From assembly GCA_964019425.1 (NCBI GenBank), contig OZ025805.1:530501-594500 (forward strand): 64,000 nt of DNA, read 5' to 3'. Below are positions 27,652 through 51,617 of this stretch, piece by piece (within the stretch, counting starts at the first letter, position 1; each line of letters begins with the position of its first letter). This stretch comes from Flectonema sp. DT1601 (lineage: Eukaryota > Euglenozoa > Diplonemea > Diplonemida > Diplonemidae). Below the pieces are notes generated by a model, which had not been told where the DNA came from, did not search any database, and was given only the letters and a program-made list of their open reading frames with translations. Position numbers and translations under genes: made by a program.

Positions 27652-30600
27652 TCAAATCCTTTCCACAGAAATCTGTGCCTCTTGAAGTTCTTCTTTTGGG
27701 TTTTGTTCGAAGTCACAGAAGCTCAATTCATTGACGTTCTCAGCTGAAGATCTCGTTTTCAGGATAGCAACTCCTACACCTCCAGCACAGAGTGCTCCCA
27801 AGACACTAATGAGTGCATATAACCAAGTCTTACTACTGTTATTATTAACATTCATTGGTTGCTTATCTTCTACAGTCATTCCTTCCCCAACAGGTTCAAT
27901 GAGATATTTGTACCCCTCTTTGTTTTCCAGAAGTGACGGATCCGCATTGCCAATTTTTGACGAGATCTGATCAACAGAAACATCTTCAGACGTAGCCTCA
28001 ACAAAGATTCCTTCAGTTCCAAGAGTTGTGTGTGAATTAGTTGACTGAACTCCAAGAGCCTTCGCGGCTCTTGAACGAGTGCCAGCGATGGAATCTAAAA
28101 TGCTCTTCAGCCCCATCTCTTCTTCCGCGTTCTCGTCATTCCACAGGTCCGGAATAGGGATTCCCCAGTTGTCGATCTCATTTTCCGACGGGAACGAATT
28201 GTTGCCTGCCTTCAACCAACCTATGAAGGAAACTCTCAACGAAGTCGGATTCTCCTGCAGTGCGTTGGAAGTTGCGATTAGCGCCATTCTGACTCCCCTC
28301 AGGAACTGCTTCGGGTTGAGTTCGATCTCCGATTTGCTTCCCTTCATTGCCAGGCGGAAGTTCTTTTTTCCAGCAGCCGTCGCAAGGGTTCTGTCCTTCT
28401 TCGGCTGTTCCGAGGAGTTGCACTGAAGTCCCTTGAGCACACAACACTCACTTCGCTGGGAAGTGCTGGCACTCCTCATTGTGCAGTCAGTGGCACAGCC
28501 AGCGTTTTCTCTTGTGCAACACCAACTCTGCTTCTGGCCATCCCAAGATGATCCTTCAAGACAATTATGTATTTTCGCCTTGCATCCCAATCCAATCTTC
28601 TGACAACATTTTGCTCTCAGTTCTTCGTCAGCAAATTTTTCTACCTGACACTCATTGAGGAGCTTCTTCTTATCTCCATTAACATCTGCATCTACTTTTC
28701 TGTTACAAGCAACATTTTCACGGCGGCAGCATTCCTGACGCCTTATCGCAGACCAGATCGGAGCGTTTTCAGGGAAGCTGCAGTCGAATTCTTCCGCTTC
28801 ACATCCAATTTGAAACTGATTACAGCAGTAGCTCTTCTTCTCTTCAGACCAACCGACAGTTCCATCCACAGCGACATTTACACTGCTTCGCGATCTCAGG
28901 ACTACTGAGTCCGCGACAATGCTGCAGTCATGATCACCGACTGGGCACCCTACTCCTTCGTTCACACAACAATGCTGTCGCTGTTGGAAGTTCCACCTGC
29001 TTGGCTCAGAAAGGCAGTCAAACTTCGATTTTCTGCACCACCTCCAAGTTGGGAACATTTCGCAACAAAATTCTAACTTTTGTTTAGAAATAACAGAATT
29101 GTCCATGCAGTCGAACACCTCACATCCAATCTGTTCCTCTCGGCAGCAGTACTCCCTTTCCGTTGTTGATAAGTTTTCATTGGAATCACACATAACAGAC
29201 GGTCTTGGCAAACACCTTGGCAATCCTCGTAATATTTCACACTTCATGTTGGACCCACACTCGATCGTATCACAATTCCTATCAGCAGATACACAGACCG
29301 GAATACCAAACTTCATCTCACACTTCATCTTGTCAGAACACTTAATCGTCGAACAACTTTTAGACTCATTTCCAGGAATACACTCAGGGAATCCTCTGAT
29401 CATTGTACAGTTGGTTCCTGGTGGGCACCACTTGTTCCAGCAAGTTGAATTGGTCTGGTTGTTCGAAATACACTCAGGGAACCCTCTGATCATTGTACAG
29501 TTGGTTCCTGGTGGGCACCACTTGTTCCAGCAAGTTGAATTGGTCTGGTTGTTCGAAATACACTCAGGGAACCCTCTGATCATTGTGCAATTGGTTCCTG
29601 GTGGGCACCACTTGTTCCAGCAAGTTGAATTAGTCTGGTTGTTCGCAATACATTCAGGGAACCCTCTGATCATTGTGCAATTGGTTCTTGGTGGGCACCA
29701 CTTGTTCCAGCAAGTTGAATTGGTCTGGTTGTTCGCAATACACTCAGGGAACCCTCTGATCATTGTACAGTTGGTTCCTGGTGGGCACCACTTGTTCCAG
29801 CAAGTTGAATTGGTCTGGTTGTTCGAAATACACTCAGGGAACCCTCTGATCATTGTGCAATTGGTTCCTGGTGGGCACCACTTGTTCCAGCAAGTTGAAT
29901 TAGTCTGGTTGTTCGCAATACACTCAGGGAACCCTCTGATCATTGTGCAATTGGTTCCTGGTGGACACCACTTGTTCCAGCAAGTTGAATTAGTCTGGTT
30001 GTGCGGAATACATTCAGGGAACCCTCTGATCATTGTGCAATTGGTTCCTGGTGGGCACCACTTGTTCCAGCAAGTTGAATTAGTCTGGTTGTTCGCAATA
30101 CACTCAGGGAAACCTCTGATCATTGTACAGTTGGTTCCTGGTGGGCACCACTTGTTCCAGCAAGTTGAATTGGTCTGGTTGTTCGAAATACACTCAGGGA
30201 ACCCTCTGATCATTGTGCAATTGGTTCCTGGTGGACACCACTTGTTCCAGCAAGTTGAATTAGTCTGGTTGTGCGGAATACATTCAGGGAACCCTCTGAT
30301 CATTGTGCAATTGGTTCCTGGTGGGCACCACTTGTTCCAGCAAGTTGAATTAGTCTGGTTGTTCGCAATACACTCAGGGAACCCTCTGATCATTGTGCAA
30401 TTGGTTCCTGGTGGGCACCACTTGTTCCAGCAAGTTGAATTGGTCTGGTTGTTCGAAATACACTCAGGGAACCCTCTGATCATTGTACAGTTGGTTCCTG
30501 GTGGGCACCACTTGTTCCAGCAAGTTGAATTGGTCTGGTTGTTCGAAATACACTCAGGGAACCCTCTGATCATTGTGCAATTGGTTCCTGGTGGGCACCA

Positions 30601-33600
30601 CTTGTTCCAGCAAGTTGAATTGGTCTGGTTGTGCGGAATACATTCAGGGAACCCTCTGATCATTGTGCAATTGGTTCCTGGTGGGCACCACTTGTTCCAG
30701 CAAGTTGAATTGGTCTGGTTGTGCGGAATACATTCAGGGAACCCTCTGATCATTGTGCAATTGGTTCCTGGTGGGCACCACTTGTTCCAGCAAGTTGAAT
30801 TAGTCTGGTTGTTCGCAATACACTCAGGGAACCCTCTGATCATTGTACAGTTGGTTCCTGGTGGGCACCACTTGTTCCAGCAAGTTGAATTGGTCTGGTT
30901 GTGCGGAATACATTCAGGGAACCCTCTGATCATTGTGCAATTGGTTCCTGGTGGGCACCACTTGTTCCAGCAAGTTGAATTAGTCTGGTTGTTCGCAATA
31001 CACTCAGGGAACCCTCTGATCATTGTACAGTTGGTTCCTGGTGGGCACCACTTGTTCCAGCAAGTTGAATTGGTCTGGTTGTTCGAAATACACTCAGGGA
31101 ACCCTCTGATCATTGTGCAATTGGTTCCTGGTGGGCACCACTTGTTCCAGCAAGTTGAATTGGTCTGGTTGTTCGCAATACACTCAGGGAACCCTCTGAT
31201 CATTGTACAGTTGGTTCCTGGTGGGCACCACTTGTTCCAGCAAGTTGAATTGGTCTGGTTGTTCGAAATACACTCAGGGAACCCTCTGATCATTGTGCAA
31301 TTGGTTCCTGGTGGGCACCACTTGTTCCAGCAAGTTGAATTGGTCTGGTTGTTCGAAATACACTCAGGGAACCCTCTGATCATTGTGCAATTGGTTCCTG
31401 GTGGGCACCACTTGTTCCAGCAAGTTGAATTGGTCTGGTTGTGCGGAATACACTCAGGGAACCCTCTGATCATTGTGCAATTGGTTCCTGGTGGGCACCA
31501 CTTGTTCCAGCAAGTTGAATTGGTCTGGTTGTGCGGAATACACTCAGGGAACCCTCTGATCATTGTGCAATTGGTTCCTGGTGGGCACCACTTGTTCCAG
31601 CAAGTTGAATTGGTCTGGTTGTTCGCAATACACTCAGGGAACCCTCTGATCATTGTACAGTTGGTTCCTGGTGGGCACCATTTGTTCCAGCAAGTTGAAT
31701 TGGTCTGGTTGTTCGCAATACACTCAGGGAACCCTCTGATCATTGTACAGTTGGTTCCTGGTGGGCACCACTTGTTCCAGCAAGTTGAATTGGTCTGGTT
31801 GTTCGCAATACACTCAGGGAACCCTCTGATCATTGTACAGTTGGTTCCTGGTGGGCACCATTTGTTCCAGCAAGTTGAATTGGTCTGGTTGTTCGCAATA
31901 CACTCAGGGAACCCTCTGATCATTGTACAGTTGGTTCCTGGTGGGCACCACTTGTTCCAGCAAGTTGAATTGGTCTGGTTGTTCGCAATACACTCAGGGA
32001 ACCCTCTGATCATTGTGCAATTGGTTCCTGGTGGGCACCATTTGTTCCAGCAAGTTGAATTGGTCTGGTTGTTCGAAATACATTCAGGGAACCCTCTGAT
32101 CATTGTGCAATTGGTTCCTGGTGGGCACCACTTGTTCCAGCAAGTTGAATTGGTCTGGTTGTTCGAAATACATTCAGGGAACCCTCTGATCATTGTACAG
32201 TTGGTTCCTGGTGGGCACCACTTGTTCCAGCAAGTTGAATTGGTCTGGTTGTTCGAAATACATTCAGGGAACCCTCTGATCATTGTGCAATTGGTTCCTG
32301 GTGGGCACCACTTGTTCCAGCAAGTTGAATTGGTCTGGTTGTTCGAAATACATTCAGGGAACCCTCTGATCATTGTACAGTTGGTTCCTGGTGGGCACCA
32401 CTTGTTCCAGCAAGTTGAATTGGTCTGGTTGTTCGCAATACACTCAGGGAACCCTCTGATCATTGTGCAATTGGTTCCTGGTGGGCACCATTTGTTCCAG
32501 CAAGTTGAATTGGTCTGGTTGTTCGAAATACATTCAGGGAACCCTCTGATCATTGTGCAATTGGTTCCTGGTGGGCACCACTTGTTCCAGCAAGTTGAAT
32601 TGGTCTGGTTGTTCGAAATACATTCAGGGAACCCTCTGATCATTGTACAGTTGGTTCCTGGTGGGCACCATTTGTTCCAGCAAGTTGAATTGGTCTGGTT
32701 GTTCGAAATACATTCAGGGAACCCTCTGATCATTGTACAGTTGGTTCCTGGTGGGCACCACTTGTTCCAGCAAGTTGAATTGGTCTGGTTGTTCGCAATA
32801 CACTCAGGGAACCCTCTGATCATTGTACAGTTGGTTCCTGGTGGGCACCACTTGTTCCAGCAAGTTGAATTGGTCTGGTTGTTCGCAATACACTCAGGGA
32901 ACCCTCTGATCATTGTACAGTTGGTTCCTGGTGGGCACCATTTGTTCCAGCAAGTTGAATTGGTCTGGTTGTTCGCAATACACTCAGGGAACCCTCTGAT
33001 CATTGTGCAATTGGTTCCTGGTGGGCACCATTTGTTCCAGCAAGTTGAATTGGTCTGGTTGTTCGAAATACATTCAGGGAACCCTCTGATCATTGTACAG
33101 TTGGTTCCTGGTGGGCACCACTTGTTCCAGCAAGTTGAATTGGTCTGGTTGTTCGAAATACATTCAGGGAACCCTCTGATCATTGTACAGTTGGTTCCTG
33201 GTGGGCACCATTTGTTCCAGCAAGTTGAATTGGTCTGGTTGTTCGAAATACATTCAGGGAACCCTCTGATCATTGTACAGTTGGTTCCTGGTGGGCACCA
33301 CTTGTTCCAGCAAGTTGAATTGGTCTGGTTGTTCGAAATACATTCAGGGAACCCTCTGATCATTGTGCAATTGGTTCCTGGTGGGCACCATTTGTTCCAG
33401 CAAGTTGAATTGGTCTGGTTGTTCGAAATACATTCAGGGAACCCTCTGATCATTGTACAGTTGGTTCCTGGTGGGCACCATTTGTTCCAGCAAGTTGAAT
33501 TGGTCTGGTTGTTCGAAATACATTCAGGGAACCCTCTGATCATTGTACAGTTGGTTCCTGGTGGGCACCACTTGTTCCAGCAAGTTGAATTGGTCTGGTT

Positions 33601-36543
33601 GTTCGAAATACATTCAGGGAACCCTCTGATCATTGTGCAATTGGTTCCTGGTGGGCACCATTTGTTCAAGCAAGTTGAATTGGTCTGGTTGTGCGGAATA
33701 CACTCAGGGAACCCTCTGATCATTGTACAGTTGGTTCCTGGTGGGCACCACTTGTTCCAGCAAGTTGAATTAGTCTGGTTGTTCGCAATACATTCAGGGA
33801 ACCCTCTGATCATTGTGCAATTGGTTCCTGGTGGGCACCACTTGTTCCAGCAAGTTGAATTGGTCTGGTTATTCGAAATACACTCAGGGAACCCTCTGAT
33901 CATTGTGCAATTGGTTCCTGGTGGGCACCACTTGTTCCAGCAAGTTGAATTGGTCTGGTTATTCGAAATACACTCAGGGAACCCTCTGATCATTGTACAG
34001 TTTGTTCCTGGTGGGCACCACTTGTTCCAGCAAGTTGAATTGGTCTGGTTGTGCGGAATACATTCAGGGAACCCTCTGATCATTGTACAGTTGGTTCCTG
34101 GTGGGCACCATTTGTTCCAGCAAGTTGAATTAGTCTGGTTGTTCGAAATACATTCAGGGAACCCTCTGATCATTGTGCAATTGGTTCCTGGTGGGCACCA
34201 CTTGTTCCAGCAAGTTGAATTGGTCTGGTTGTTCGGAATACATTCAGGGAACCCTCTGATCATTGTACAGTTGGTTCCTGGTGGGCACCATTTGTTCCAG
34301 CAAGTTGAATTGGTCTGGTTATTCGAAATACACTCAGGGAACCCTCTGATCATTGTACAGTTTGTTCCTTGTGGGCACCACTTGTTCCAGCAAGTTGAAT
34401 TAGTCTGGTTGTTCGAAATACATTCAGGGAACCCTCTGATCATTGTGCAATTGGTTCCTGGTGGGCACCACTTGTTCCAGCAAGTTGAATTAGTCTGGTT
34501 GTTCGAAATACATTCAGGGAACCCTCTGATCATTGTGCAATTGGTTCCTGGTGGGCACCACTTGTTCCAGCAAGTTGAATTGGTCTGGTTGTTCGGAATA
34601 CATTCAGGGAACCCTCTGATCATTGTACAGTTGGTTCCTGGTGGGCACCATTTGTTCCAGCAAGTTGAATTGGTCTGGTTATTCGAAATACACTCAGGGA
34701 ACCCTCTGATCATTGTACAGTTGGTTCCTGGTGTGCACCATTTGTTCCAGCAAGTTGAATTAGTCTGGTTGTTCGAAATACACTCAGGGAACCCTCTGAT
34801 CATTGTGCAATTGGTTCCTGGTGGGCACCACTTGTTCCAGCAAGTTGAATTGGTCTGGTTATTCGAAATACACTCAGGGAACCCTCTGATAATTGTACAG
34901 TTTGTTCCTGGTGGGCACCACTTGTTCCAGCAAGTTGAATTGGTCTGGTTGTTCGGAATACATTCAGGGAACCCTCTGATCATTGTACAGTTGGTTCCTG
35001 GTGGGCACCATTTGTTCCAGCAAGTTGAATTGGTCTGGTTATTCGAAATACACTCAGGGAACCCTCTGATCATTGTACAGTTGGTTCCTGGTGTGCACCA
35101 TTTGTTCCAGCAAGTTGAATTAGTCTGGTTGTTCGAAATACACTCAGGGAACCCTCTGATCATTGTGCAATTGGTTCCTGGTGGGCACCACTTGTTCCAG
35201 CAAGTTGAATTGGTCTGGTTATTCGAAATACACTCAGGGAACCCTCTGATAATTGTACAGTTTGTTCCTGGTGGGCACCACTTGTTCCAGCAAGTTGAAT
35301 TGGTCTTGTTGTGCGGAATACATTCAGGGAACCCTCTGATCATTGTACAGTTGGTTCCTGGTGGGCACCACTTGTTCCAGCAAGTTGAATTAGTCTGGTT
35401 GTTCGCAATACATTCAGGGAACCCTCTGATCATTGTGCAATTGGTTCCTGGTGGGCACCACTTGTTCCAGCAAGTTGAATTAGTCTGGTTGTTCGGAATA
35501 CATTCAGGGAACCCTCTGATCATTGTACAGTTGGTTCCTGGTGGGCACCACTTGTTCCAGCAAGTTGAATTGGTCTGGTTGTTCGGAATACATTCAGGGA
35601 ACCCTCTGATCATTGTGCAATTGGTTCCTGGTGGGCACCATTTGTTCCAGCAAGTTGAATTGGTCTGGTTGTTCGAAATACACTCAGGGAACCCTCTGAT
35701 CATTGTACAGTTGGTTCCTGGTGGGCACCATTTGTTCCAGCAAGTTGAATTGGTCTGGTTGTGCGGAATACATTCAGGGAACCCTCTGATCATTGTACAG
35801 TTGGTTCCTGGTGGGCACCACTTGTTCCAGCAAGTTGAATTAGTCTGGTTGTTCGGAATACATTCAGGGAACCCTCTGATCATTGTGCAATTGGTTCCTG
35901 GTGGGCACCATTTGTTCCAGCAAGTTGAATTGGTCTGGTTGTTCGAAATACACTCAGGGAACCCTCTGATCATTGTACAGTTGGTTCCTGGTGGGCACCA
36001 CTTGTTCCAACAAGTTGAATTGGTCTGGTTGTTCGGAATACACTCAGGGAACCCTCTGATCATTGTACAGTTGGTTCCTGGTGGGCACCATTTGTTCCAG
36101 CAAGTTGAATTGGTCTGGTTGTGCGGAATACATTCAGGGAACCCTCTGATCATTGTACAGTTGGTTCCTGGTGGGCACCACTTGTTCCAACAAGTTGAAT
36201 TGGTCTGGTTGTTCGGAATACATTCAGGGAACCCTCTGATCATTGTGCAATTGGTTCCTGGTGGGCACCACTTGTTCCAGCAAGTTGAATTAGTCTGGTT
36301 GTGCGGAATACATTCAGGGAACCCTCTGATCATTGTACAGTTGGTTCCTGGTGGGCACCACTTGTTCCAACAAGTTGAATTGGTCTGGTTGTTCGGAATA
36401 CACTCAGGTACACCGGTGCTCATTGAGCAGTTTGTTCCAGTTGGACATGCGACAGAAATGCAGTTTAATGAAATTGATTTTTGACCGTTAGCGAATGAAG
36501 TTAACCCAAGTAAGAGAGTGAACAAAATGTTTGTCAAATTCAT
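27652..36543 (-). CDS. Giant membrane-anchored glycoprotein with 78 tandem 30-residue Cys/sequon repeats
   Basis: 2,963 residues from the ATG at 36543. The frame extends upstream only through non-ATG codons, and the ATG follows a CCTACAACAACA leader. Residues 1-21 are a signal peptide (MNLTNILFTLLLGLTSFANG). After one degenerate unit come 78 near-identical 30-residue repeats with four Cys (CWNKWC...NC...EC) and three N-glycosylation sequons each (NQT, NST, NCT), about 230 sites. Two diverged units follow, then about eight modules with the pattern W...CC-x5-GC...DC, then a globular region of about 200 residues. A single transmembrane helix (TWLYALISVLGALCAGGVGV) and a 35-residue acidic tail end the protein. 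It is therefore a type I surface protein, probably a long heavily glycosylated rod or coat. There are no introns. The CC/GC modules resemble Cys motifs in other protist surface proteins; the main repeat is not one I recognise. Confidence 0.85.
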   Translation of the reverse strand: MNLTNILFTLLLGLTSFANGQKSISLNCISVACPTGTNCSMSTGVPECIPNNQTNSTCWNKWCPPGTNCTMIRGFPECIPHNQTNSTCWNKWCPPGTNCTMIRGFPECIPNNQTNSTCWNKWCPPGTNCTMIRGFPECIPHNQTNSTCWNKWCPPGTNCTMIRGFPECIPNNQTNSTCWNKWCPPGTNCTMIRGFPECISNNQTNSTCWNKWCPPGTNCTMIRGFPECIPNNQTNSTCWNKWCPPGTNCTMIRGFPECIPHNQTNSTCWNKWCPPGTNCTMIRGFPECISNNQTNSTCWNKWCPPGTNCTMIRGFPECIPNNQTNSTCWNKWCPPGTNCTMIRGFPECIPNNQTNSTCWNKWCPPGTNCTMIRGFPECIANNQTNSTCWNKWCPPGTNCTMIRGFPECIPHNKTNSTCWNKWCPPGTNCTIIRGFPECISNNQTNSTCWNKWCPPGTNCTMIRGFPECISNNQTNSTCWNKWCTPGTNCTMIRGFPECISNNQTNSTCWNKWCPPGTNCTMIRGFPECIPNNQTNSTCWNKWCPPGTNCTIIRGFPECISNNQTNSTCWNKWCPPGTNCTMIRGFPECISNNQTNSTCWNKWCTPGTNCTMIRGFPECISNNQTNSTCWNKWCPPGTNCTMIRGFPECIPNNQTNSTCWNKWCPPGTNCTMIRGFPECISNNQTNSTCWNKWCPPGTNCTMIRGFPECISNNQTNSTCWNKWCPQGTNCTMIRGFPECISNNQTNSTCWNKWCPPGTNCTMIRGFPECIPNNQTNSTCWNKWCPPGTNCTMIRGFPECISNNQTNSTCWNKWCPPGTNCTMIRGFPECIPHNQTNSTCWNKWCPPGTNCTMIRGFPECISNNQTNSTCWNKWCPPGTNCTMIRGFPECISNNQTNSTCWNKWCPPGTNCTMIRGFPECIANNQTNSTCWNKWCPPGTNCTMIRGFPECIPHNQTNSTCLNKWCPPGTNCTMIRGFPECISNNQTNSTCWNKWCPPGTNCTMIRGFPECISNNQTNSTCWNKWCPPGTNCTMIRGFPECISNNQTNSTCWNKWCPPGTNCTMIRGFPECISNNQTNSTCWNKWCPPGTNCTMIRGFPECISNNQTNSTCWNKWCPPGTNCTMIRGFPECISNNQTNSTCWNKWCPPGTNCTMIRGFPECISNNQTNSTCWNKWCPPGTNCTMIRGFPECIANNQTNSTCWNKWCPPGTNCTMIRGFPECIANNQTNSTCWNKWCPPGTNCTMIRGFPECIANNQTNSTCWNKWCPPGTNCTMIRGFPECISNNQTNSTCWNKWCPPGTNCTMIRGFPECISNNQTNSTCWNKWCPPGTNCTMIRGFPECISNNQTNSTCWNKWCPPGTNCTMIRGFPECIANNQTNSTCWNKWCPPGTNCTMIRGFPECISNNQTNSTCWNKWCPPGTNCTMIRGFPECISNNQTNSTCWNKWCPPGTNCTMIRGFPECISNNQTNSTCWNKWCPPGTNCTMIRGFPECISNNQTNSTCWNKWCPPGTNCTMIRGFPECIANNQTNSTCWNKWCPPGTNCTMIRGFPECIANNQTNSTCWNKWCPPGTNCTMIRGFPECIANNQTNSTCWNKWCPPGTNCTMIRGFPECIANNQTNSTCWNKWCPPGTNCTMIRGFPECIANNQTNSTCWNKWCPPGTNCTMIRGFPECIPHNQTNSTCWNKWCPPGTNCTMIRGFPECIPHNQTNSTCWNKWCPPGTNCTMIRGFPECISNNQTNSTCWNKWCPPGTNCTMIRGFPECISNNQTNSTCWNKWCPPGTNCTMIRGFPECIANNQTNSTCWNKWCPPGTNCTMIRGFPECISNNQTNSTCWNKWCPPGTNCTMIRGFPECIANNQTNSTCWNKWCPPGTNCTMIRGFPECIPHNQTNSTCWNKWCPPGTNCTMIRGFPECIANNQTNSTCWNKWCPPGTNCTMIRGFPECIPHNQTNSTCWNKWCPPGTNCTMIRGFPECIPHNQTNSTCWNKWCPPGTNCTMIRGFPECISNNQTNSTCWNKWCPPGTNCTMIRGFPECISNNQTNSTCWNKWCPPGTNCTMIRGFPECIANNQTNSTCWNKWCPPGTNCTMIRGFPECIPHNQTNSTCWNKWCPPGTNCTMIRGFPECISNNQTNSTCWNKWCPPGTNCTMIRGFPECIANNQTNSTCWNKWCPPGTNCTMIRGFPECIPHNQTNSTCWNKWCPPGTNCTMIRGFPECIANNQTNSTCWNKWCPPGTNCTMIRGFPECISNNQTNSTCWNKWCPPGTNCTMIRGFPECIANNQTNSTCWNKWCPPRTNCTMIRGFPECIANNQTNSTCWNKWCPPGTNCTMIRGFPECISNNQTNSTCWNKWCPPGTNCTMIRGFPECISNNQTNSTCWNKWCPPGTNCTMIRGFPECIPGNESKSCSTIKCSDKMKCEMKFGIPVCVSADRNCDTIECGSNMKCEILRGLPRCLPRPSVMCDSNENLSTTEREYCCREEQIGCEVFDCMDNSVISKQKLEFCCEMFPTWRWCRKSKFDCLSEPSRWNFQQRQHCCVNEGVGCPVGDHDCSIVADSVVLRSRSSVNVAVDGTVGWSEEKKSYCCNQFQIGCEAEEFDCSFPENAPIWSAIRRQECCRRENVACNRKVDADVNGDKKKLLNECQVEKFADEELRAKCCQKIGLGCKAKIHNCLEGSSWDGQKQSWCCTRENAGCATDCTMRSASTSQRSECCVLKGLQCNSSEQPKKDRTLATAAGKKNFRLAMKGSKSEIELNPKQFLRGVRMALIATSNALQENPTSLRVSFIGWLKAGNNSFPSENEIDNWGIPIPDLWNDENAEEEMGLKSILDSIAGTRSRAAKALGVQSTNSHTTLGTEGIFVEATSEDVSVDQISSKIGNADPSLLENKEGYKYLIEPVGEGMTVEDKQPMNVNNNSSKTWLYALISVLGALCAGGVGVAILKTRSSAENVNELSFCDFEQNPKEELQEAQISVERI
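29371..36390 (-). repeat. 78-unit, 90-bp coding tandem array
   Basis: 78 units of exactly 90 bp, each in frame. Variation is nearly confined to one dipeptide (codons giving SN, PN, PH or AN after the last Cys-Ile), a few synonymous sites (CATTGTACAG/CATTGTGCAA), and rare substitutions (for example CTPGT). Longer-range copies exist: a 360-bp (four-unit) block at about 34621-34980 recurs at 34981-35340. This pattern indicates recent expansion by unequal exchange or conversion. Confidence 0.95.
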
Positions 36544-37271: not shown

Positions 37272-40200
37272 CTATTCATTCTTCTGTTTTGATATGGTTG
37301 ATGAAGAAGGAAGTAAAGGAGCAGGGCTAGAAACTAAAGTAACGTCAGCATCAAATGTTGAAAACTGAGTTTCTTCTTCTTCCCTACTACCAGAAAACGT
37401 AAAAGCAAGAGGATTAACCAACTTAACAGAACCTTCCCTAATGGGTGGGTCGGGACCTGCCACAAGGAAAGGAGGTGGTGTTGTTCTGTCCTCAATGGAA
37501 GACCAGGAAATGTTATTATCAGAAAACCAAATAAAGTCTTTCACTTCTGAAGCTCTGCATGGTCGATTACTTTTCGATAAAAGTGATGAAATAAACTTCT
37601 GCAGACTTGGTGAGCACTCCGGGTCAAAACGAGGAGCTCCTCGCAATACCAAGTTAGCCGTGACTGCACGAGAGCTTCCATCAAATGCTCTTCTGTTGTG
37701 AATCATTTCATATAAAACACAACCTAATGACCAATAGTCTGAACTAGGTGATGGTTGAGTAAACTTTAACACTTCTGGTGAAGCATAACTTACTTTGTTT
37801 TCATCAGGTAAAGCAACCGGCAGTCCTGGATCCGCAAGCATTAGATGACCTGATTGACTAAATAATAAGTCAGTTGGAGCTAAGTTACGAAACACAATCA
37901 GATTCGCATGCAAGTGATCCAATCCAAGAACTGCTTCTGCAGTCCAGAAGGCAGCGTCTTGTTCGCTGAATTTACCAGACATTTCTAAATGGTATACTAA
38001 GTTACCTCCTGTTTGATAAGGAACTACCCAACAGATTTCTTCATCAGTTTCGAATGGGCAACTGACTCGAACTAAGAAATCAGATTTTAGTTTAGAAAGA
38101 ATTATTATCTCCGTTGCGATATTTCTTCGTTGAGAAGCTGTGAGTAGCTTCTTATCAACCAACGACAAGAGAAGGTGTTCAGAACCTCCTCGGAGATTAC
38201 AATGTCGTAGTTTACCATACGAAGTTGGCATCGCATCACCAAAGAAGTCGTAGTCTTGAATTCGATTAATCTTTGGAAGGAGTGCTTGTGCATCACCAGA
38301 AACAGTGAGTGATGTTCCGTTTATCGATTCCAAAATCTTTTGCATCCAATTTTCCGCTTCGCCTTCTTTCTCGCAAGCAAACGCGATTACTTTTCCCTTT
38401 TTACCATTGTCTTTACATATTGCAAAGCCTTCTTCACCTAAAGGTATTCCCTTTGCTTCATAAAGTGGTACGATATCGCTGTGTTTGGTAGAGTATTCAC
38501 TACTTTGGAGTCCATCACTTCCCTTCTTGTAGATAAGTAGAAGAGATCCTCGCAGTTCACACCAAACTCGTTCTCCGAAGTCTTTTGTTTTCTGGAGGAC
38601 AATTTCCGCATTGTCAGAGAGCTTACCTTTGTGATATATCGTGACTGATCCTACAGCTTTCGGCAGACATGCAAAATCTGCGTTTTCGTCATCTGCAGCC
38701 GCCTGTTCAGACAGTGCAGGATCGTATCTATTTCTTGTTATTAAAAAGACTATTCCAGTCCACAGAGCTGTAGCTGTGACTACGATCGCCAGCGATATTA
38801 ACATTCCAGTCGTAAGTGATTCGTTGATAACAAAAGATGCTATTGCTAAACAGAAAAATAAATGACTCAGAGTGACTGCAAGGTTTGTTCCAGATGACTT
38901 GTAAGGTTTTTGTCTGATTAAATACACGAGGTAGATAACACTTATGAAGACGATGATACAGATTCGAGGTTCACAACCAGAGTCACTGACTGATGAAATT
39001 ACAGAAAGGATTACAATTCTATAAAACGATATGATCGGATAATAAGTAACACTTCTCGGTAGTAATTCGTCAAATACTAATGCGTACTTTCTCATGAACA
39101 GTCTGTCACGAAGGTGTCGACAACACCAATGTCCCGTTGGAAGCCACACAAGTAACCAACTAGGCATCACATGTTTACGACGTGGTGACGATATAGCACA
39201 CGTTGCATTAGTGAAACTGTTTCCCATATTAATTTCTAAATACTCAATGTAGTAATTCCTACCTGTGTCAGTGTTCAGTTTTTTCTTCAGAAACCAATAC
39301 AAGAATGCTCCATAACCGAATATGTTTACAACAGCCCAGATACCCCCCACAATTACTATCACAGTTACTCCTTCAGCTGCAGCTTTTAAGAATCCAGCCG
39401 TTAGTGGAACTGTTCCGATATACAACAGAAGAATTAATAAGTTTGGAAAGAAAACTTGTCCAGCAACGTCTCGTAGCCTTCTGTAAGCAGTTGGTGTGAT
39501 AAACCAATTCACGACAACAATAAGAAGTACAAACACAGTTATTCCTGAGTGTAAAATTAGTGTTCCCAGAAAGTAGTTTGTATACTTGTGATCAGTCGCG
39601 AGTATTTGAAGTGGGAATACTACCGCACGGAGGCTAAGCAGACTAGAGTGAGCTGAAGGTTTAGTACAGCTATTGGAACCAGTGATGTAAAGTAATTGTA
39701 AGAACGTCAATGAATGAATTGGAGCAACTAGTGATCCTCCCAAAGCCACTTCCAATGCCACAGATGCAACAACAGAACTCCCCGCCACAGCACCTGTGAT
39801 CGCACTGTCTTGAACTACATCACAATGAATTCCTTCATAACCAGTATCACATAAACACATAGGTCCTTGAATACACTTACCCTGTACACAGAGAGGACAG
39901 ACTTTACAAAACCCTTCACTGTCGATATTGTAATTATGAATACAACCACTGCAGTCAGATAGAATTGGATTCTCACATTCCATTTGAATGTTAACAACAA
40001 AACCTGTTTCATTAGAACTCCCTTGTAACTCTGGTTGGATTCCTGACATAAATCCAGAACTTGATAAGGAACTGAGTCGAACAGTCAAAGTTTCCGTAGA
40101 ATTCCAACTCGCTGTCAATTGCGGTACCGGAGGCAATGAAAACTGCGCTACTTTTGTTGATATTTTCATCCAGGTTTGAAAACGGATTTCACTGTTGTAG

Positions 40201-41249
40201 AAGTCAGCCAACCAATCCAACGAAGACTCGATTATTGGAGGAGGGACTTGATCAACGTACAGGTCTTCTGAGCACAATGACATTTCTATTATTGTTGCGT
40301 TTCTTTTTATTAGTGACACGGTTGTTGTGGTTGGTCCCAACCAAGCATTCTCACTTGAGTGTTTTATACTCAGAGATGCAATTCCAACTGAAGGAACGAC
40401 AGTAAATGTTGTGGAAATGAACTCATCAGAAGGAGGTACCAGAACCGAAGCATCAACTCGAAGTGTAATTATTTCATTTCTAAAGATATCGTAGTGACTG
40501 AGGTCAGGACAGTTGTTTATCAAGGCTGCTGGTGCTACACTCGTAGAAGAAAGAGAACCTAACTTAATAAATAACGTCGTGTTTGGGTTGCTTCCTCCGA
40601 TCTGTACAATATTACCAGTTGAGCTCCTGGACAGTAGTGATGCCAGAGTTGGGTTAGTATTGGATTCGAGTACCAGCCATCCAACAGAAAGAAGTGAAAC
40701 ATTCACTGATCTGCTAACAATTATTTGAAGTCTGGAGTCCTGTTGAATTAATGACTTCTCAGTTACGACATTACTGACTGATGTTATCTGTGCGCAGATC
40801 GCTGATGATCTTTGTGGGAATTGAATGGGTTGAAGACCCAAAGTAGAACATTCAAGATTCGAAGTAGTATCGCAATTCGTGTGTAAGAAGAGCCTACCAG
40901 AATTCTGATTGTGAAAGTCACTTATTTTTAATGATATTTTCAACTTCGTCGTCAAAGAGTATCCCTCAGGTGGGCAATCAGTCAGTTCATAGGAAGACTC
41001 CGCTGAACCATTAAAAGAAGAATCAAATACCCTCCAATCTGTACACGAAGAATTATAATCCCTATCATCGCACTGGTTACTTGCTGAAAACTTTCCTGAC
41101 ACTCCCACTGATATAAATCCACCACCAGGTGGAGGTACTAATTCCAATGTCAACCAACTACAAGACGCCCATTCAATATTATTAACACCGACTTCACACA
41201 CCGCTGCAGAAGTCACTACTACCCATGCTAATTGTAGCAACACATTCAT
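37272..41249 (-). CDS. Multi-pass receptor with EGF-like module, PH domain and AGC-type pseudokinase
   Basis: 1,325 residues. A signal peptide (MNVLLQLAWVVVTSAAVC) leads into an ectodomain of about 425 residues with many sequons, then an EGF-like module (CVQGKCIQGPMCLCDTGYEG, about residues 451-475). Roughly eight or nine membrane spans follow (about 485-850). A PH domain (about 868-973: VTIYHKGKL, ERVWCELRGSLLLIYKK, W near its end) and an AGC-like kinase domain (about 997-1243) complete it. The fold is clear: VDKKLL, GGNLVYHLEMSGKFSE, LGLDHLHA, VSYASPEVL and SDYWSLGCVLYEMI. Key residues are changed, though. The ATP-site Lys position reads LLLSLV, HRD reads FRN, and DFG reads DPG. It is therefore probably a pseudokinase that scaffolds signalling at the plasma membrane through phosphoinositide binding. 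The start is the ATG after GTTAATCAACAACA-like sequence; the gene is intron-free. Confidence 0.8.
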   Translation of the reverse strand: MNVLLQLAWVVVTSAAVCEVGVNNIEWASCSWLTLELVPPPGGGFISVGVSGKFSASNQCDDRDYNSSCTDWRVFDSSFNGSAESSYELTDCPPEGYSLTTKLKISLKISDFHNQNSGRLFLHTNCDTTSNLECSTLGLQPIQFPQRSSAICAQITSVSNVVTEKSLIQQDSRLQIIVSRSVNVSLLSVGWLVLESNTNPTLASLLSRSSTGNIVQIGGSNPNTTLFIKLGSLSSTSVAPAALINNCPDLSHYDIFRNEIITLRVDASVLVPPSDEFISTTFTVVPSVGIASLSIKHSSENAWLGPTTTTVSLIKRNATIIEMSLCSEDLYVDQVPPPIIESSLDWLADFYNSEIRFQTWMKISTKVAQFSLPPVPQLTASWNSTETLTVRLSSLSSSGFMSGIQPELQGSSNETGFVVNIQMECENPILSDCSGCIHNYNIDSEGFCKVCPLCVQGKCIQGPMCLCDTGYEGIHCDVVQDSAITGAVAGSSVVASVALEVALGGSLVAPIHSLTFLQLLYITGSNSCTKPSAHSSLLSLRAVVFPLQILATDHKYTNYFLGTLILHSGITVFVLLIVVVNWFITPTAYRRLRDVAGQVFFPNLLILLLYIGTVPLTAGFLKAAAEGVTVIVIVGGIWAVVNIFGYGAFLYWFLKKKLNTDTGRNYYIEYLEINMGNSFTNATCAISSPRRKHVMPSWLLVWLPTGHWCCRHLRDRLFMRKYALVFDELLPRSVTYYPIISFYRIVILSVISSVSDSGCEPRICIIVFISVIYLVYLIRQKPYKSSGTNLAVTLSHLFFCLAIASFVINESLTTGMLISLAIVVTATALWTGIVFLITRNRYDPALSEQAAADDENADFACLPKAVGSVTIYHKGKLSDNAEIVLQKTKDFGERVWCELRGSLLLIYKKGSDGLQSSEYSTKHSDIVPLYEAKGIPLGEEGFAICKDNGKKGKVIAFACEKEGEAENWMQKILESINGTSLTVSGDAQALLPKINRIQDYDFFGDAMPTSYGKLRHCNLRGGSEHLLLSLVDKKLLTASQRRNIATEIIILSKLKSDFLVRVSCPFETDEEICWVVPYQTGGNLVYHLEMSGKFSEQDAAFWTAEAVLGLDHLHANLIVFRNLAPTDLLFSQSGHLMLADPGLPVALPDENKVSYASPEVLKFTQPSPSSDYWSLGCVLYEMIHNRRAFDGSSRAVTANLVLRGAPRFDPECSPSLQKFISSLLSKSNRPCRASEVKDFIWFSDNNISWSSIEDRTTPPPFLVAGPDPPIREGSVKLVNPLAFTFSGSREEEETQFSTFDADVTLVSSPAPLLPSSSTISKQKNE

Positions 41250-46733: not shown

Positions 46734-49700
46734 CTACTCTTGTTCAGCTTGAGAAAGCATCTGAAGGTAGGCTTGTGTCGGATCATCAGCGTTGGCGATG
46801 TTTTTGAGACGTTTTTGTTCATCCGCAGGCAGAGACATGTAAATATTAGAATAAAAGAATCCCTCTGAATTGATAAGTTCCTTTGGACTATCCTGTTCAA
46901 CTACAGTACCACAGTGATCAACTCTTCCTAAGACAACTAACTGGTCGGAATCGATAATTGTTTGAAGTCTGTGTGCAATAGTGATGACTGTGTGAGAAGT
47001 AAATGCCTCTCTGATAGTCTTTTGAATTAAAGTATCAGTTTCCAAATCAATATTAGCAGTCGCCTCATCGATAAGCAGAAGTTTTGTTCCCTTCTTGAGA
47101 AGTGCTCTTGCCAAGCAAAGAAGCTGACGCTCACCGAGAGAGAAATTAGCAGCTTTTTCAGTGACCTCTCCAGAGAGACGACCATCGTGTTTTTCAATTC
47201 TGTCTTTCATGTTTACTTTAGTAACGGCATCCCATACTTCTTCGTCAGTCGACAGGTCGAATGGATCTAAATTTCTTCTAACAGTTCCTCTAAACAGAAC
47301 TGGGTCTTGAGGAACCATTGAGATACGTCTACGGAGGTCAGACATAGCGATAGTTGATGTGTCTTTTCCATTAATTCTGACAGCTCCACCGGCGATTTCA
47401 ACAAGTCTGAATATGGCAGTCATGATTGTACTTTTACCAACACCAGTTCCTCCAACAATTCCAATCCTCTGTCCAGCTTTAGCTTTAAATGATAAATCTT
47501 TTACAACAATTGGAAGTTCTGGTCGGTATCTTAAAGAGACGTTGTCGAATTCAATAGCGACGTCTTCTCCTGGCCATGATGAGTCTGGTTTCTCACCTGT
47601 TAGTTTCTCTTGTGGTACTTCATCCCATTGACCAGCAGTGTATTGTAAGATTCTCTCAACGCTATTAATTGATGCCTCAAGTGTGCTGTACATACTTGAC
47701 ATGATTGATAAATAGAATGGAAGTGATGTCGCGTACATAATCCCGAGAGCTTTTAGTGAAACAGATCCAGTTCCGTTACCTGATCTACACTTGTCGATGA
47801 CATTAACAGTGACGACAGACCCGACGATAATACATCCCATCAAACCAAGTCTAATAGCTAAGTATTGTGGTAATGCAATACTCGCAAAGGTACTCGTCAC
47901 ACTTTTATCGATTTGCTCAACATTTACTTTACAACTTCCATTCTGAAGACCATAAGCCCTGAGAGTTGTTATTCCGTTAATCGTTTCAGTGTAGTGAGCC
48001 AATACTGGTGTTCTGTTAATGCTGTCGATTCTCTTTGTTTCTCTTTGACTAGGAAGGTAGTAGTTAACAGTAAAGATATAAAACACTGATATTAATGCCA
48101 ACACGGCAATAACAATCGGTTGACTGGCAGCTTGGATAACGATGTTTCCAAGAGACATACAGGCGACGTATAAAAACCAAAACATGTTCGATGGAACAAC
48201 AGAATCCACTTGAAAAATGTCATCTGTAAACCTGTTTAGAATACGACCTGTTGGTGTGGTGTCAAAGAACGAAGTTGGAGCGGTTACTAAGTGTCTTAAC
48301 ATTCCGTCGTGCAGAGCAGTTGAACCTTTTCTAAATAAAGAATATCCATATTTAGTAACAAAGTAACAAGTAAATATCATTACTCCGATTATAGAGCTGT
48401 AAACTATAATAAAAAACTTATTATGAGTATATTGAGGAGCTAATGGAAAACGAGGTTCAGGTTCATGTGCCCAATACTGCAACCACAGGTCAGTCGCATT
48501 AAAGGCAAACTGGTTGAATGCCATCAGCATGAGAAGACCAATCCAGTAGACTACTCCTCCGCAATTTCTAATGTACGCGAGGTAGACTGCTGCTGTTACT
48601 TTTCCTGTTACTCTTTCTTCGTTTCTGATTAGCTGGTCGTCATCGTCCTTTTTGAGAGGGCTCGCCTTTGGTGTGTTCGCTTTGTCTTCAGCGACATCAT
48701 CTTCAAAGAATGAAATAGTTTCTGAATAATTAATTCTCATACTTCTTTGTAAGTATGATTTAGCCAACACTCTTGACCAATCACATGCAATCAATAGTTT
48801 AATAGAATTACCTCCTGGTGATGAGAGAATAGAACTTATCTTCGATAAAGCGTCTTCGAAATTGGTCAGGATCGATTTGTTTTTAATATCGGAATTCCAA
48901 ACAGCTGTAGTGTTGCTGTCAGTAAGAACGTTACTGAATCCTTCATCTGTGAGGTTGTTGTTGTAGTTCTTATTACAAACAGATAGGTTACTCGTCACAT
49001 TTATTAAGAATGATTGTTCCTGAGTCTGTGAAACTTCTTCTTTTTCAGATTCCTCGACATCAGCTTCGTCTGTTTCTTTTTCTGCCGCTAATATTTGTTG
49101 AAATTCAGATTCTTTGGATTTGAACTCTGAGTAGGTTCCGCTGAATTTTATTTCACCCTCACCAGAAGGAGACTTCTCGATTACGATAACGTTGTCTGCT
49201 TTGTCCAAGTATTGAACTTGATGAGTTGCGAGAACAATTGTCTTTCCTTTTAATACACCACAGATGCATTGTTCAACCATACGCCTCTGTGTTCCGGCAT
49301 CAAGTGCTGAGAGAGGGTCATCAAACAAGAAGAAATCGGTTCCCAAATAAACAGCTCTTGCTAATGAAACTCTCTGCTTCTGTCCCCCCGACAAGGTAAT
49401 TCCTCGTTCTCCGATCTCAGTTTGATCGCCTTGTTTGAAGTTCTTGAATTCCCTTCGTAGTTGACATACGTCAACACAAGCATTATACCAAATATCTTCT
49501 TTATCAGACTCCATGATGATGTTTCTCTCGACAGAAGCATTCTTTAGCCAGGCTTCTTGAGTTGCGTACACTGGTCTAGAAGTACAGTGAACGCTACCTT
49601 GAGCACAGTCAATGTTACCAAGCAGAGCATCAATAAAAGTAGTCTTACCACTTCCGGTTGGTCCAATTATCATCGTGAGCTTACCCTTTTCGATTGAAAC

Positions 49701-51617
49701 GGGACTTGATAATTTCAATAAAACCTTTTCAACTACTTTGTATTGAGCGTCTTTCTCGGCAGCTGCTTTTCCAGCTGCTTTTTCTTTTTCCTTTGATTCA
49801 TCGGCTGGGTCCTCTTCCTTTTCTTCAATTCCGTTTTCGCGATCAGCTTTCTTAGCGACGATTGCGCTCTCAGTGCAGGCAGCAGCTATGAGAACAGCAA
49901 CAATCTGAGAGTATTCAATAGGGGGCGGGAGTTTCTGTAATACAGATTCATCACCTTTTGATAACCTGACAGGTGTATAAGCGAAAAATACAGCAGCATC
50001 GGCTTCACCTTCAGGGAGGAATCCAGCGTCGGATTTACCAGTGCGAATCATCGCCGCGGAGTTTTCTGGTAACTCAGTTGTGCCAAAGTCAACACTTTCG
50101 ATAGTGTCCGGGGCTTCAAGCATTCTCGTAATTCTGTAGAAAGCTTCTCTACATGAAATCGCCTTCGTAATTAACGCTGGGAGAGTAGTAGACGGTTGAC
50201 GCATAATCGTGAAATAAGATTGAGATGTGAAGGCGATCGCTGCTGTCAAAGTATTTCCCAACAAACTAAAAACAATAAAACAAGTCGCATTCAACATTGG
50301 AATGGTAACAAGAATTCCAGCATAGAGAAATGCGAACAAGTGATGAGTTTGTTTTATGTATCCAACTTCTTCCTTACGGAGATCACCTACTTGCTCTGAC
50401 ATCTTATCTTCCCAGACCATGTACTTCACAATTCTGATGCCTTCGAAGAGCTCATAGACGAGTTTTAATCTTCTGTCTTTAACTCTATTCATTTGTTTGT
50501 AAGGCTCTCCCATTTTCATCATAATAATTCCTTGGAATGGTCCACAGACAACCAACACACCAAGAGAAACAAACACACTCGGACCAACCAAGTGATAAAG
50601 CATTATCATAGAATAAATAATCATAACTGGTGCAGCCCACAGATCGTGAATGTTTAATAGAAGTTCTCGAACTCTTTCAGAATCCTTGTCAATCAGGTTT
50701 ACTTTATTACCTGTGTTGAAGTCAGGATGAGCGTTCGCCTTGGTGCTGATACTGAAAGTCTTTTTGTAAATTCTCGAAGATAAAACTCCTTTCATTTGAG
50801 CACCAGTTCTATATAAAGAGAACTGATACCAAGCTCCAGTAAGAAATGAAACAAACTGACTGACGACCATGATTGCAACATAAGTAAACCCTTCACTGTA
50901 AGAAGCATCATCCGTGTCTTGCATAAAAAGGATAACTCTGCGAAGGATTTCAGGTTGGACAAACTGAGCCGCAACCGTCAACACTTTAAGGACACCAGAT
51001 AAAAATAATGAAGTTCTGAATGCCTTGAAAAGAGCGCGGAATGATGATGCGGCTTCTGGTTTCTCATCGGACCATTTATATGGAGATCCATCTTCCTTTG
51101 AGCAGAGAGGCTTTAGTAGATGCGGTTTAATGAATGATCCCTTTCCTTCAGAACATTCAAAGATTCTCTCACCCATGTAGTAACCATCACCACGACCTTT
51201 ATCGTTTGTGGTGTCCCATTCTACTCCACAAAATATTGATTCTCTAGCTGGTCCGTTTGGAAGAGTTCCAACCCACTTTAAGGTTCCCTCATTGCCATTG
51301 TCATCTACTACTTTAGATTGTTTCTCAACAAGATGATCCCAACAGTGAGAACGTCTTACTTCCTCTCTCCAATGTTTATCAAATCTGTGGCAATTCACAA
51401 CAGTTTTGTCCTGGTGAGCGAGACCTCCAAAATCCTCAAATTGCAAAGCCTCTCCTTCTTTACTCTTTTTGTAAGCTAACGAAACAGTTTTTCCAACCCA
51501 AATAAAAAACAGTCTGGAAAACCAACCTGCTTCTTCTTCTGCTGTCTTTTGTTCATTCCGAAATTCATTTTCATAATCCTCGTCATCTTGATTAATAAGC
51601 TGACGGTAGCCAGACAT
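46734..51617 (-). CDS. ABCC-type (MRP-like) transporter with an inserted CAP-Gly domain
   Basis: 1,627 residues. The ABCC lasso-like N-terminus (GWFSRLFFIWVGKTVSLAYK) is interrupted at about residues 100-172 by a CAP-Gly domain (GTLKWVGTLP, FCGVEWDTTNDKGRGDG, GERIFECSEGKGSFIKPH). TMD1 then begins (FRALFKAFRTSLFLSGVLKV). NBD1 has Walker A GPTGSGKTT (about 656), signature LSGGQKQRVSLARA and Walker B FFLFDDPLSALD. TMD2 follows, then NBD2 with Walker A GGTGVGKST (about 1389), signature FSLGERQLLCLARA and Walker B LLLIDEATANID. ABCC proteins export organic anions and conjugates. CAP-Gly domains bind EEY/F tails of tubulin and EB proteins, so this transporter may be tethered to microtubules; that is inference. 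An Asn/Ser-rich insert of about 120 residues separates NBD1 and TMD2. It is a single frame with no intron evident. Confidence 0.9.
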   Translation of the reverse strand: MSGYRQLINQDDEDYENEFRNEQKTAEEEAGWFSRLFFIWVGKTVSLAYKKSKEGEALQFEDFGGLAHQDKTVVNCHRFDKHWREEVRRSHCWDHLVEKQSKVVDDNGNEGTLKWVGTLPNGPARESIFCGVEWDTTNDKGRGDGYYMGERIFECSEGKGSFIKPHLLKPLCSKEDGSPYKWSDEKPEAASSFRALFKAFRTSLFLSGVLKVLTVAAQFVQPEILRRVILFMQDTDDASYSEGFTYVAIMVVSQFVSFLTGAWYQFSLYRTGAQMKGVLSSRIYKKTFSISTKANAHPDFNTGNKVNLIDKDSERVRELLLNIHDLWAAPVMIIYSMIMLYHLVGPSVFVSLGVLVVCGPFQGIIMMKMGEPYKQMNRVKDRRLKLVYELFEGIRIVKYMVWEDKMSEQVGDLRKEEVGYIKQTHHLFAFLYAGILVTIPMLNATCFIVFSLLGNTLTAAIAFTSQSYFTIMRQPSTTLPALITKAISCREAFYRITRMLEAPDTIESVDFGTTELPENSAAMIRTGKSDAGFLPEGEADAAVFFAYTPVRLSKGDESVLQKLPPPIEYSQIVAVLIAAACTESAIVAKKADRENGIEEKEEDPADESKEKEKAAGKAAAEKDAQYKVVEKVLLKLSSPVSIEKGKLTMIIGPTGSGKTTFIDALLGNIDCAQGSVHCTSRPVYATQEAWLKNASVERNIIMESDKEDIWYNACVDVCQLRREFKNFKQGDQTEIGERGITLSGGQKQRVSLARAVYLGTDFFLFDDPLSALDAGTQRRMVEQCICGVLKGKTIVLATHQVQYLDKADNVIVIEKSPSGEGEIKFSGTYSEFKSKESEFQQILAAEKETDEADVEESEKEEVSQTQEQSFLINVTSNLSVCNKNYNNNLTDEGFSNVLTDSNTTAVWNSDIKNKSILTNFEDALSKISSILSSPGGNSIKLLIACDWSRVLAKSYLQRSMRINYSETISFFEDDVAEDKANTPKASPLKKDDDDQLIRNEERVTGKVTAAVYLAYIRNCGGVVYWIGLLMLMAFNQFAFNATDLWLQYWAHEPEPRFPLAPQYTHNKFFIIVYSSIIGVMIFTCYFVTKYGYSLFRKGSTALHDGMLRHLVTAPTSFFDTTPTGRILNRFTDDIFQVDSVVPSNMFWFLYVACMSLGNIVIQAASQPIVIAVLALISVFYIFTVNYYLPSQRETKRIDSINRTPVLAHYTETINGITTLRAYGLQNGSCKVNVEQIDKSVTSTFASIALPQYLAIRLGLMGCIIVGSVVTVNVIDKCRSGNGTGSVSLKALGIMYATSLPFYLSIMSSMYSTLEASINSVERILQYTAGQWDEVPQEKLTGEKPDSSWPGEDVAIEFDNVSLRYRPELPIVVKDLSFKAKAGQRIGIVGGTGVGKSTIMTAIFRLVEIAGGAVRINGKDTSTIAMSDLRRRISMVPQDPVLFRGTVRRNLDPFDLSTDEEVWDAVTKVNMKDRIEKHDGRLSGEVTEKAANFSLGERQLLCLARALLKKGTKLLLIDEATANIDLETDTLIQKTIREAFTSHTVITIAHRLQTIIDSDQLVVLGRVDHCGTVVEQDSPKELINSEGFFYSNIYMSLPADEQKRLKNIANADDPTQAYLQMLSQAEQE

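Follow-up and report, generated by a model that had tools for sequence, protein, structure and literature searches.

A giant repeat protein of a diplonemid flagellate combines a CREMP-like disulfide module with the apparent membrane anchor of a gene family

We analysed a 64,000-nucleotide window from the diplonemid Flectonema sp. DT1601 (assembly GCA_964019425.1, contig OZ025805.1, positions 530,501 to 594,500), and all positions given below without a contig are those of this window. On its minus strand lies a gene dominated by one tandem array of near-identical 30-residue units, hereafter the array gene. Its product, the array protein, is apparently a giant, membrane-anchored glycoprotein. 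Before modification the protein has a mass of 332,998 Da, with 358 Cys residues and 242 N-X-S/T sequons, 233 of which lie inside the array. The parts of the gene are listed in Table 1, together with related genes elsewhere in the genome that carry arrays of another kind.

Table 1. Parts of the array gene, and related genes bearing NWT-type arrays (C4C, four-cysteine module).
Feature	Position	Strand	Remarks
Whole coding frame, 2963 amino acids (aa)	27652..36543	minus	single exon as read; ATG at 36543, stop 27652-27654; N-terminus MNLTNILFTLLLGLTSFANGQ, by eye like those of P0002 and P0004
Putative signal peptide, residues 1-20	36484..36543	minus	judged from the letters; highest 11-mer hydropathy 2.15
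First, diverged C4C module, residues 28-57	36373..36462	minus	65/90 nt match array consensus
Array of 78 units x 30 aa, residues 58-2396	29356..36372	minus	every complete unit with 4 Cys and 3 sequons; last unit with diverged linker
Two diverged C4C modules after array, residues 2397-2451	29191..29355	minus	strict C-X4-C-X5-C-X8-C count
Cys-rich stalk of CC-containing modules, residues 2452-2708	28420..29190	minus	common to gene family; alignment A1, own-genome search
Membrane-proximal alpha/beta domain, about residues 2724-2891	27871..28374	minus	predicted; model gives ten-residue blocks of first half at pLDDT 69-84
Transmembrane helix hydrophobic core (putative), residues 2910-2928	27760..27816	minus	hydropathy scan
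Cytoplasmic tail (putative), 35 residues, 2929-2963	27655..27759	minus	last residue Ile; tail comparison within family
Tandem SPPSNWT-like array genes, L039-L042	C60:496000-534499		family anchor; 37 to 104 NWT motifs
SPPSNWT-like array gene, L037	C51		family anchor; 73 NWT motifs

The array is highly regular. TRF reports one 90-bp array at 29377-36408, with 78.1 copies, 95% matches and 0% indels, and in the minus-strand frame the spacing between the 78 units is exactly 30 aa in 77/77 steps. An earlier reading of the DNA, made without database searches (the sequence-only reading), had placed 78 near-identical repeats at 29371-36390, a span of 78 x 90 bp, and had credited each unit with four Cys and three sequons. 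Both counts are confirmed. The commonest unit, CWNKWCPPGTNCTMIRGFPECISNNQTNST, has Cys at positions 1, 6, 12 and 21 and sequons at N11, N25 and N28, and the 77 complete units retain 308 of 308 Cys and 231 of 231 sequons. Strict C-X4-C-X5-C-X8-C modules number 81 in the whole protein, and 78 of these are the array units. At the DNA level 42 of the 78 units are distinct, and mean pairwise identity among the complete units is 95.7%.

The array is under strong purifying selection. Its piN/piS is 0.10, or 0.019 when linker codons 23 and 24 are left out, and variable columns number 5, 2 and 11 at the first, second and third codon positions of the minus-strand frame (heterozygosity 1.02, 0.05 and 2.72, respectively). 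A plus-strand frame of 2461 aa (29099-36484) is open antisense to the array, and we read it as a by-product of stop-free repeats. Coding on the minus strand is favoured because variation falls mostly at third codon positions and because homologues exist.

Units also turn over within the array. Those at most 10 apart resemble one another more closely than they do when the order is shuffled, and a lag of four units stands out; neither result is reached by any of 2000 permutations (0/2000 in each case). An exact 403-bp repeat recurs at the same four-unit distance. Together these features form the pattern left by unequal crossing-over or conversion, and they support the active homogenisation of repeats proposed by the sequence-only reading.

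The ends of the protein are consistent with a signal peptide and a transmembrane helix, both of which had been proposed and neither of which is proven. The N-terminal hydrophobic stretch covers 11 residues with a mean hydropathy of 2.15, and no 19-mer there exceeds 1.2. Residues 2910-2928 are the sole 19-mer of the protein with a hydropathy of at least 1.6. The type I topology at the cell surface that had been suggested is supported, by inference. The estimate of about 230 N-glycans per molecule stands as an upper limit, because one sequon of each unit is N-C-T, with a conserved Cys as its middle residue, and the remaining two have a spacing of three residues.

Searched as a whole, the protein has no match among Pfam or NCBIfam families (in Pfam, none even at E<=1), and the sequence-only reading had recognised the unit from no named family. 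That the unit falls outside all named families is not supported, given a match to the cysteine-rich eggshell membrane protein (CREMP) of chicken. A phmmer search of the PDB with the first 1180 residues of the array protein returned a single entry, 9pgb_A, a four-module CREMP fragment (E=3.1e-19); a paralogue of the array gene on contig C29 (protein P0002) matches the same entry (E=5e-17). Because composition bias could inflate such scores, we permuted the non-Cys core residues of six module strings with Cys fixed, using 20000 permutations in each of 12 comparisons, a set that left aside the C5 and C85 modules with their 12-residue third loop. The scores of the array consensus against two CREMP modules were reached by 0/20000 and 11/20000 shuffles. 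The weakest comparison paired the first post-array module with the second CREMP module and gave 280/20000.

The likeness extends to the layout of the modules. CREMP modules have the spacing C-X4-C-X5-C-X8-C (Kodali et al. 2011, PMC3068167), which equals that of all 78 array units, and a 118-aa CREMP fragment is described there as folded, with no free thiols. The consensus core is identical to one CREMP module at 11/21 residues and to the other at 9/21. Among the CREMP-conserved residues D3, K8, G9, G17 and P19, the array has G9 (76/77 units), G17 and P19, with N at position 3 and P at position 8 (one Q). Both proteins contain long runs of near-identical modules. However, CREMP linkers are X6 or X11 (a/b modules) whereas the array linker is X9 throughout, and the array protein, unlike CREMP, has three sequons per unit, a predicted transmembrane anchor, a Cys-rich stalk and an alpha/beta domain. 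CREMP also comes from the amniote oviduct, whereas the array protein comes from a flagellate.

Foldseek places 9pgb first for the array model (E=5.8e-6), but with a TM score of 0.20 and a low-confidence model (pLDDT 49.8), and VIA-align reported no match for this model. The fold match to 9PGB thus appears weaker than the sequence match. Judged by sequence, the array unit is a known kind of disulfide module, and its common descent with the CREMP module is likely, although convergence on a small disulfide module may account for the likeness instead.

Mucins and similar coat glycoproteins have Ser/Thr/Pro-rich, Cys-poor repeats. They resemble the array protein in bearing many potential glycosylation sites, in a long run of repeats, on one membrane anchor; unlike them, the array protein is rich in Cys and N-sequons (13.4% Cys, 16.0% Asn, 13.3% Thr, 10.8% Pro and 5.0% Ser within the array). 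Its composition is not that of the mucin-like coat once suggested, though Cys-poor sequon arrays do occur in sibling genes, where the NWT arrays of C51 and the C60 cluster are nearly Cys-free. Giardia VSPs are type I membrane proteins of a multigene family, with many CXXC motifs. The array protein likewise comes from a multigene family of Cys-rich proteins that share a conserved anchor, but it contains no CXXC motif. The closest Pfam model is FOLN (PF09289, follistatin/osteonectin EGF-like), only 22 positions long, for which the C29 paralogue, at 20.9 bits, falls just short of the cut-off of 21.1; the array protein itself has no FOLN match. The slime-mould spore-coat protein SP75 is a Cys-rich coat protein with a compatible C4C spacing, C-X4-C-X5-C-X6-10-C, and was likened to CREMP by the authors of the CREMP study; by their description, SP75 modules are far more variable in their C-termini and intervening residues (PMC3068167).

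The array gene belongs to a gene family that shares its anchor. We searched the genome (89.5 Mb, 92 contigs) with the 570 residues that follow the array, at E<=0.001. The search gave 57 matching stretches, many spanning only part of the query, which were merged by hand to 51 places, the array gene included, because six were second stretches of one frame. The Cys-rich stalk, alpha/beta domain, transmembrane helix and tail are homologous among the aligned members. P0004 is a transcript-derived relative, so some relative is transcribed. At L045 (C20:467000-476999) there are two nearly identical 718-aa anchor frames with other Cys-containing frames between them, and the split C20 anchor frames may reflect introns in that branch of the family.

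Family arrays exhibit several chemistries. We surveyed 30 loci, covering at most 500 residues before the anchor match. Cys modules are 30 residues long in the window gene, 34 in C5, C49, C60:274-293 and C85, 43 in C69 and about 29 in C29, while C22 arrays consist of a 97-residue three-module block and those of C13:1347, C73, C19 and C21 are of mixed type. The 34-residue sibling arrays lack the C-X4-C-X5-C-X8-C spacing, their third loop being X12. Arrays of C51 and C60 (502, 505, 529, 732) are instead built from a 7-residue SPPSNWT-like sequon repeat with almost no Cys. Sequon density across the 30 loci is 9.8 per 100 aa in the window gene, 3.0 in C29, 11.5 to 14 in the NWT arrays and 0 to 0.4 in the others. 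Beyond these loci, the Cys-rich frames C4:1375 (436 aa), C13:542 (495 aa) and C71 have 5.0, 3.0 and 2.5; the C71 locus (L049, C71:175500-185400) holds a 2954-aa frame with 73 sequons, irregular Cys modules of another kind and a related anchor. Among the 145 stretches listed, from 150 scored of 274 candidates, the window gene alone has the CWNKWC-type unit (at least 93% identity), and C29 is the runner-up there, at 52% identity. Across the family, one kind of membrane anchor bears different kinds of array. Beside the C29 paralogue, at L034 778-3234 (+), lies a frame for a long proline-alanine-rich repeat protein.

The tails are alike at their ends. In a set picked by a pattern that missed the NWT genes, 19/21 distinct tails end in Val or Ile, often as T-R-V/I (27655-27663 in the window gene). 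A C-terminal ending of this type could act as an endoplasmic reticulum (ER) exit signal or a PDZ-type signal.

Array type follows the anchor lineage. Our anchor tree has 35 rows, representing 34 of the 51 places plus P0004; it was built by a quick method, with long branches flagged by the program, and it omits places outside the 30 best loci or missing the pattern (e.g., C20 twice, C27). The window gene groups with C29 and P0004 in one clade (SH-aLRT 99), within which the anchors of the window gene and C29 are 51% identical, with a dN of 0.41 and saturated dS. Eight array types, labelled from partial reads, require 7 changes on this tree. As this is the minimum possible, array type tracks the anchor, and the unit itself has been replaced between clades.

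Within tandem clusters, array length differs between paralogues. Three C49 genes (237, 250 and 257) share 1755 identical anchor bases and have frames of 2242, 1732 and 1664 aa, and thus differ by 15, 17 and 2 units of 34 residues. C5:744 and C5:737, with 1734 identical anchor bases, are 340 aa apart, or 10 units; pairs with anchors 99.8% identical are 204 aa apart (C5:759 and C5:737, 6 units) and 374 aa apart (C60:293 and C60:284, 11 units). These C5, C49 and C60:274-293 differences come from stop-to-stop frames, and it is by inference that we place them in the array. C5:737 and C5:752 are of equal length, and C49:227 (anchor 98.9%) was excluded from the comparison. Whole-unit steps in every tandem pair are ruled out, since C49:264 and C49:237 differ by 175 aa, or 5.15 units of 34; the same applies to C22, where differences of 589 and 87 aa make 6.07 and 0.90 units of 97. 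Ten NWT genes of the C60 cluster carry, in order, 37, 99, 38, 66, 64, 43, 41, 74, 104 and 52 NWT motifs, and pairwise anchor identity among three of them is 98.1 to 99.1%. The length variation once suggested is supported by these comparisons of tandem paralogues, as distinct from isolates.

We read the array protein as an apparently membrane-anchored and probably glycan-rich version of a disulfide module already known, within a multigene family. We favour the reading, with a probability of roughly 0.55, that it forms a disulfide-stiffened, N-glycosylated type I membrane rod and is a component of the surface coat. It would enter the ER by its signal peptide, close two disulfides in each C4C module, by analogy with CREMP, and extend as a stable rod of 81 modules. 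Oligosaccharyltransferase would add N-glycans at the loop and linker sequons (STT3 has 3 matches on 3 contigs of the genome). If each module adds 2-3 nm, as is usual for modules of such size, the rod would be about 160-240 nm long. The conserved Cys-rich stalk, alpha/beta domain, single transmembrane helix and short tail would hold this rod at the cell, in a surface coat built from the multigene family with the array protein as one component. Unequal recombination or conversion would shift array length by whole units, and array length would set the molecular reach and the number of glycans displayed.

A plausible site is the fine non-tubular hairs described for one diplonemid, Lacrimia vacuolata. 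In this species such hairs coat the apex, flagella and flagellar pocket, hair-coated vesicles bud from the pocket and the surface is otherwise described as smooth, with a naked membrane (PMC10653844). By analogy, the array protein might be located in hairs of this kind, a tentative placement. As tentative is the wider proposal that interchangeable arrays on one conserved anchor form a diplonemid surface-diversity system. The kinds of array would then be sequon-free Cys rods, Cys rods with at most three N-glycans per module and 7-residue NWT chains, and recombination among tandem copies would vary reach and glycan number among cells while leaving the unit unchanged.

Against the membrane rod we weighed a structural wall or matrix protein, whose ectodomain would be shed, or become cross-linked as part of a collar, a cyst wall or an extracellular fibre. 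The closest module of solved structure does come from an eggshell-membrane fibre, likened by its authors to a spore coat, although the available text on CREMP mentions no transmembrane anchor (PMC3068167). In the Flectonema family, the transmembrane helix and tail are conserved among aligned relatives, and the shared Val/Ile ending of the pattern-picked tails suggests a working cytoplasmic end, which makes a wall protein unlikely. Less probable again is a diversified recognition surface, made of prey or host adhesins or length-variable antigens, with selection acting on unit number and array type. The 51 anchor places with their several array chemistries and the tandem copies with identical anchors and unequal lengths would suit such a surface, as would the suggestion that extracellular vesicles of the Lacrimia pocket may carry adhesins (PMC10653844). 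However, the window units scarcely vary in amino acids, the opposite of what diversifying selection on the unit would produce, and array type changes on the anchor tree no more often than it must. Arrays of this sort are hard to assemble, as stated for CREMP (Kodali et al., PMC3068167), and the exact unit number could be off, but a mis-sized or unexpressed, decaying gene is very improbable given 42 different units, 2963 codons without stop or frameshift, diverged edge modules, a 92-contig assembly and the strong purifying pattern.

The family provides concrete candidates for the diplonemid surface coat and hairs, and it connects a module known from bird eggshells with the coat of a protist. 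For measuring repeat turnover, a natural series is available in the tandem genes, whose anchors are identical and whose arrays are unequal. Among diplonemids, Paradiplonema papillatum can be genetically manipulated (PMC12621601, a study with six draft diplonemid genomes). The literature searched describes no diplonemid surface-protein family in the parts available, including those of PMC10161547, PMC8061765, PMC12621601 and PMC10653844.

The surroundings of the array gene contain other long frames. Just upstream, at 37272-41249 (-), lies a receptor-like frame with an EGF-like stretch in its apparent ectodomain, several hydrophobic segments, a weak PH match and a C-terminal protein kinase. At about 20.6-21.5 kb the long frames change from mostly plus, leftward, to mostly minus, rightward, resembling a strand switch from one gene cluster to the next. 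Genome-wide, the paraflagellar-rod family PF05149, which we take to mark Euglenozoa, has 27 matches; the 14 negative controls are seemingly prokaryotes and have no bearing on that use as a marker. At 46734-51617 (-) the window encodes an ABC transporter with two ABC_membrane and two ABC_tran stretches and a CAP-Gly domain at residues 102-166. Among named relatives the best are P0009 (45%), whose prefix 'Rhum' we take to stand for Rhynchopus humris, and, at 41% over 53% of the query, a Diplonema papillatum protein. Both species are diplonemids (for D. papillatum, PMC10161547). The CAP-Gly family PF01302 is also present in 5/13 other listed relatives of the transporter (P0009, P0010, P0012, P0013 and P0014).
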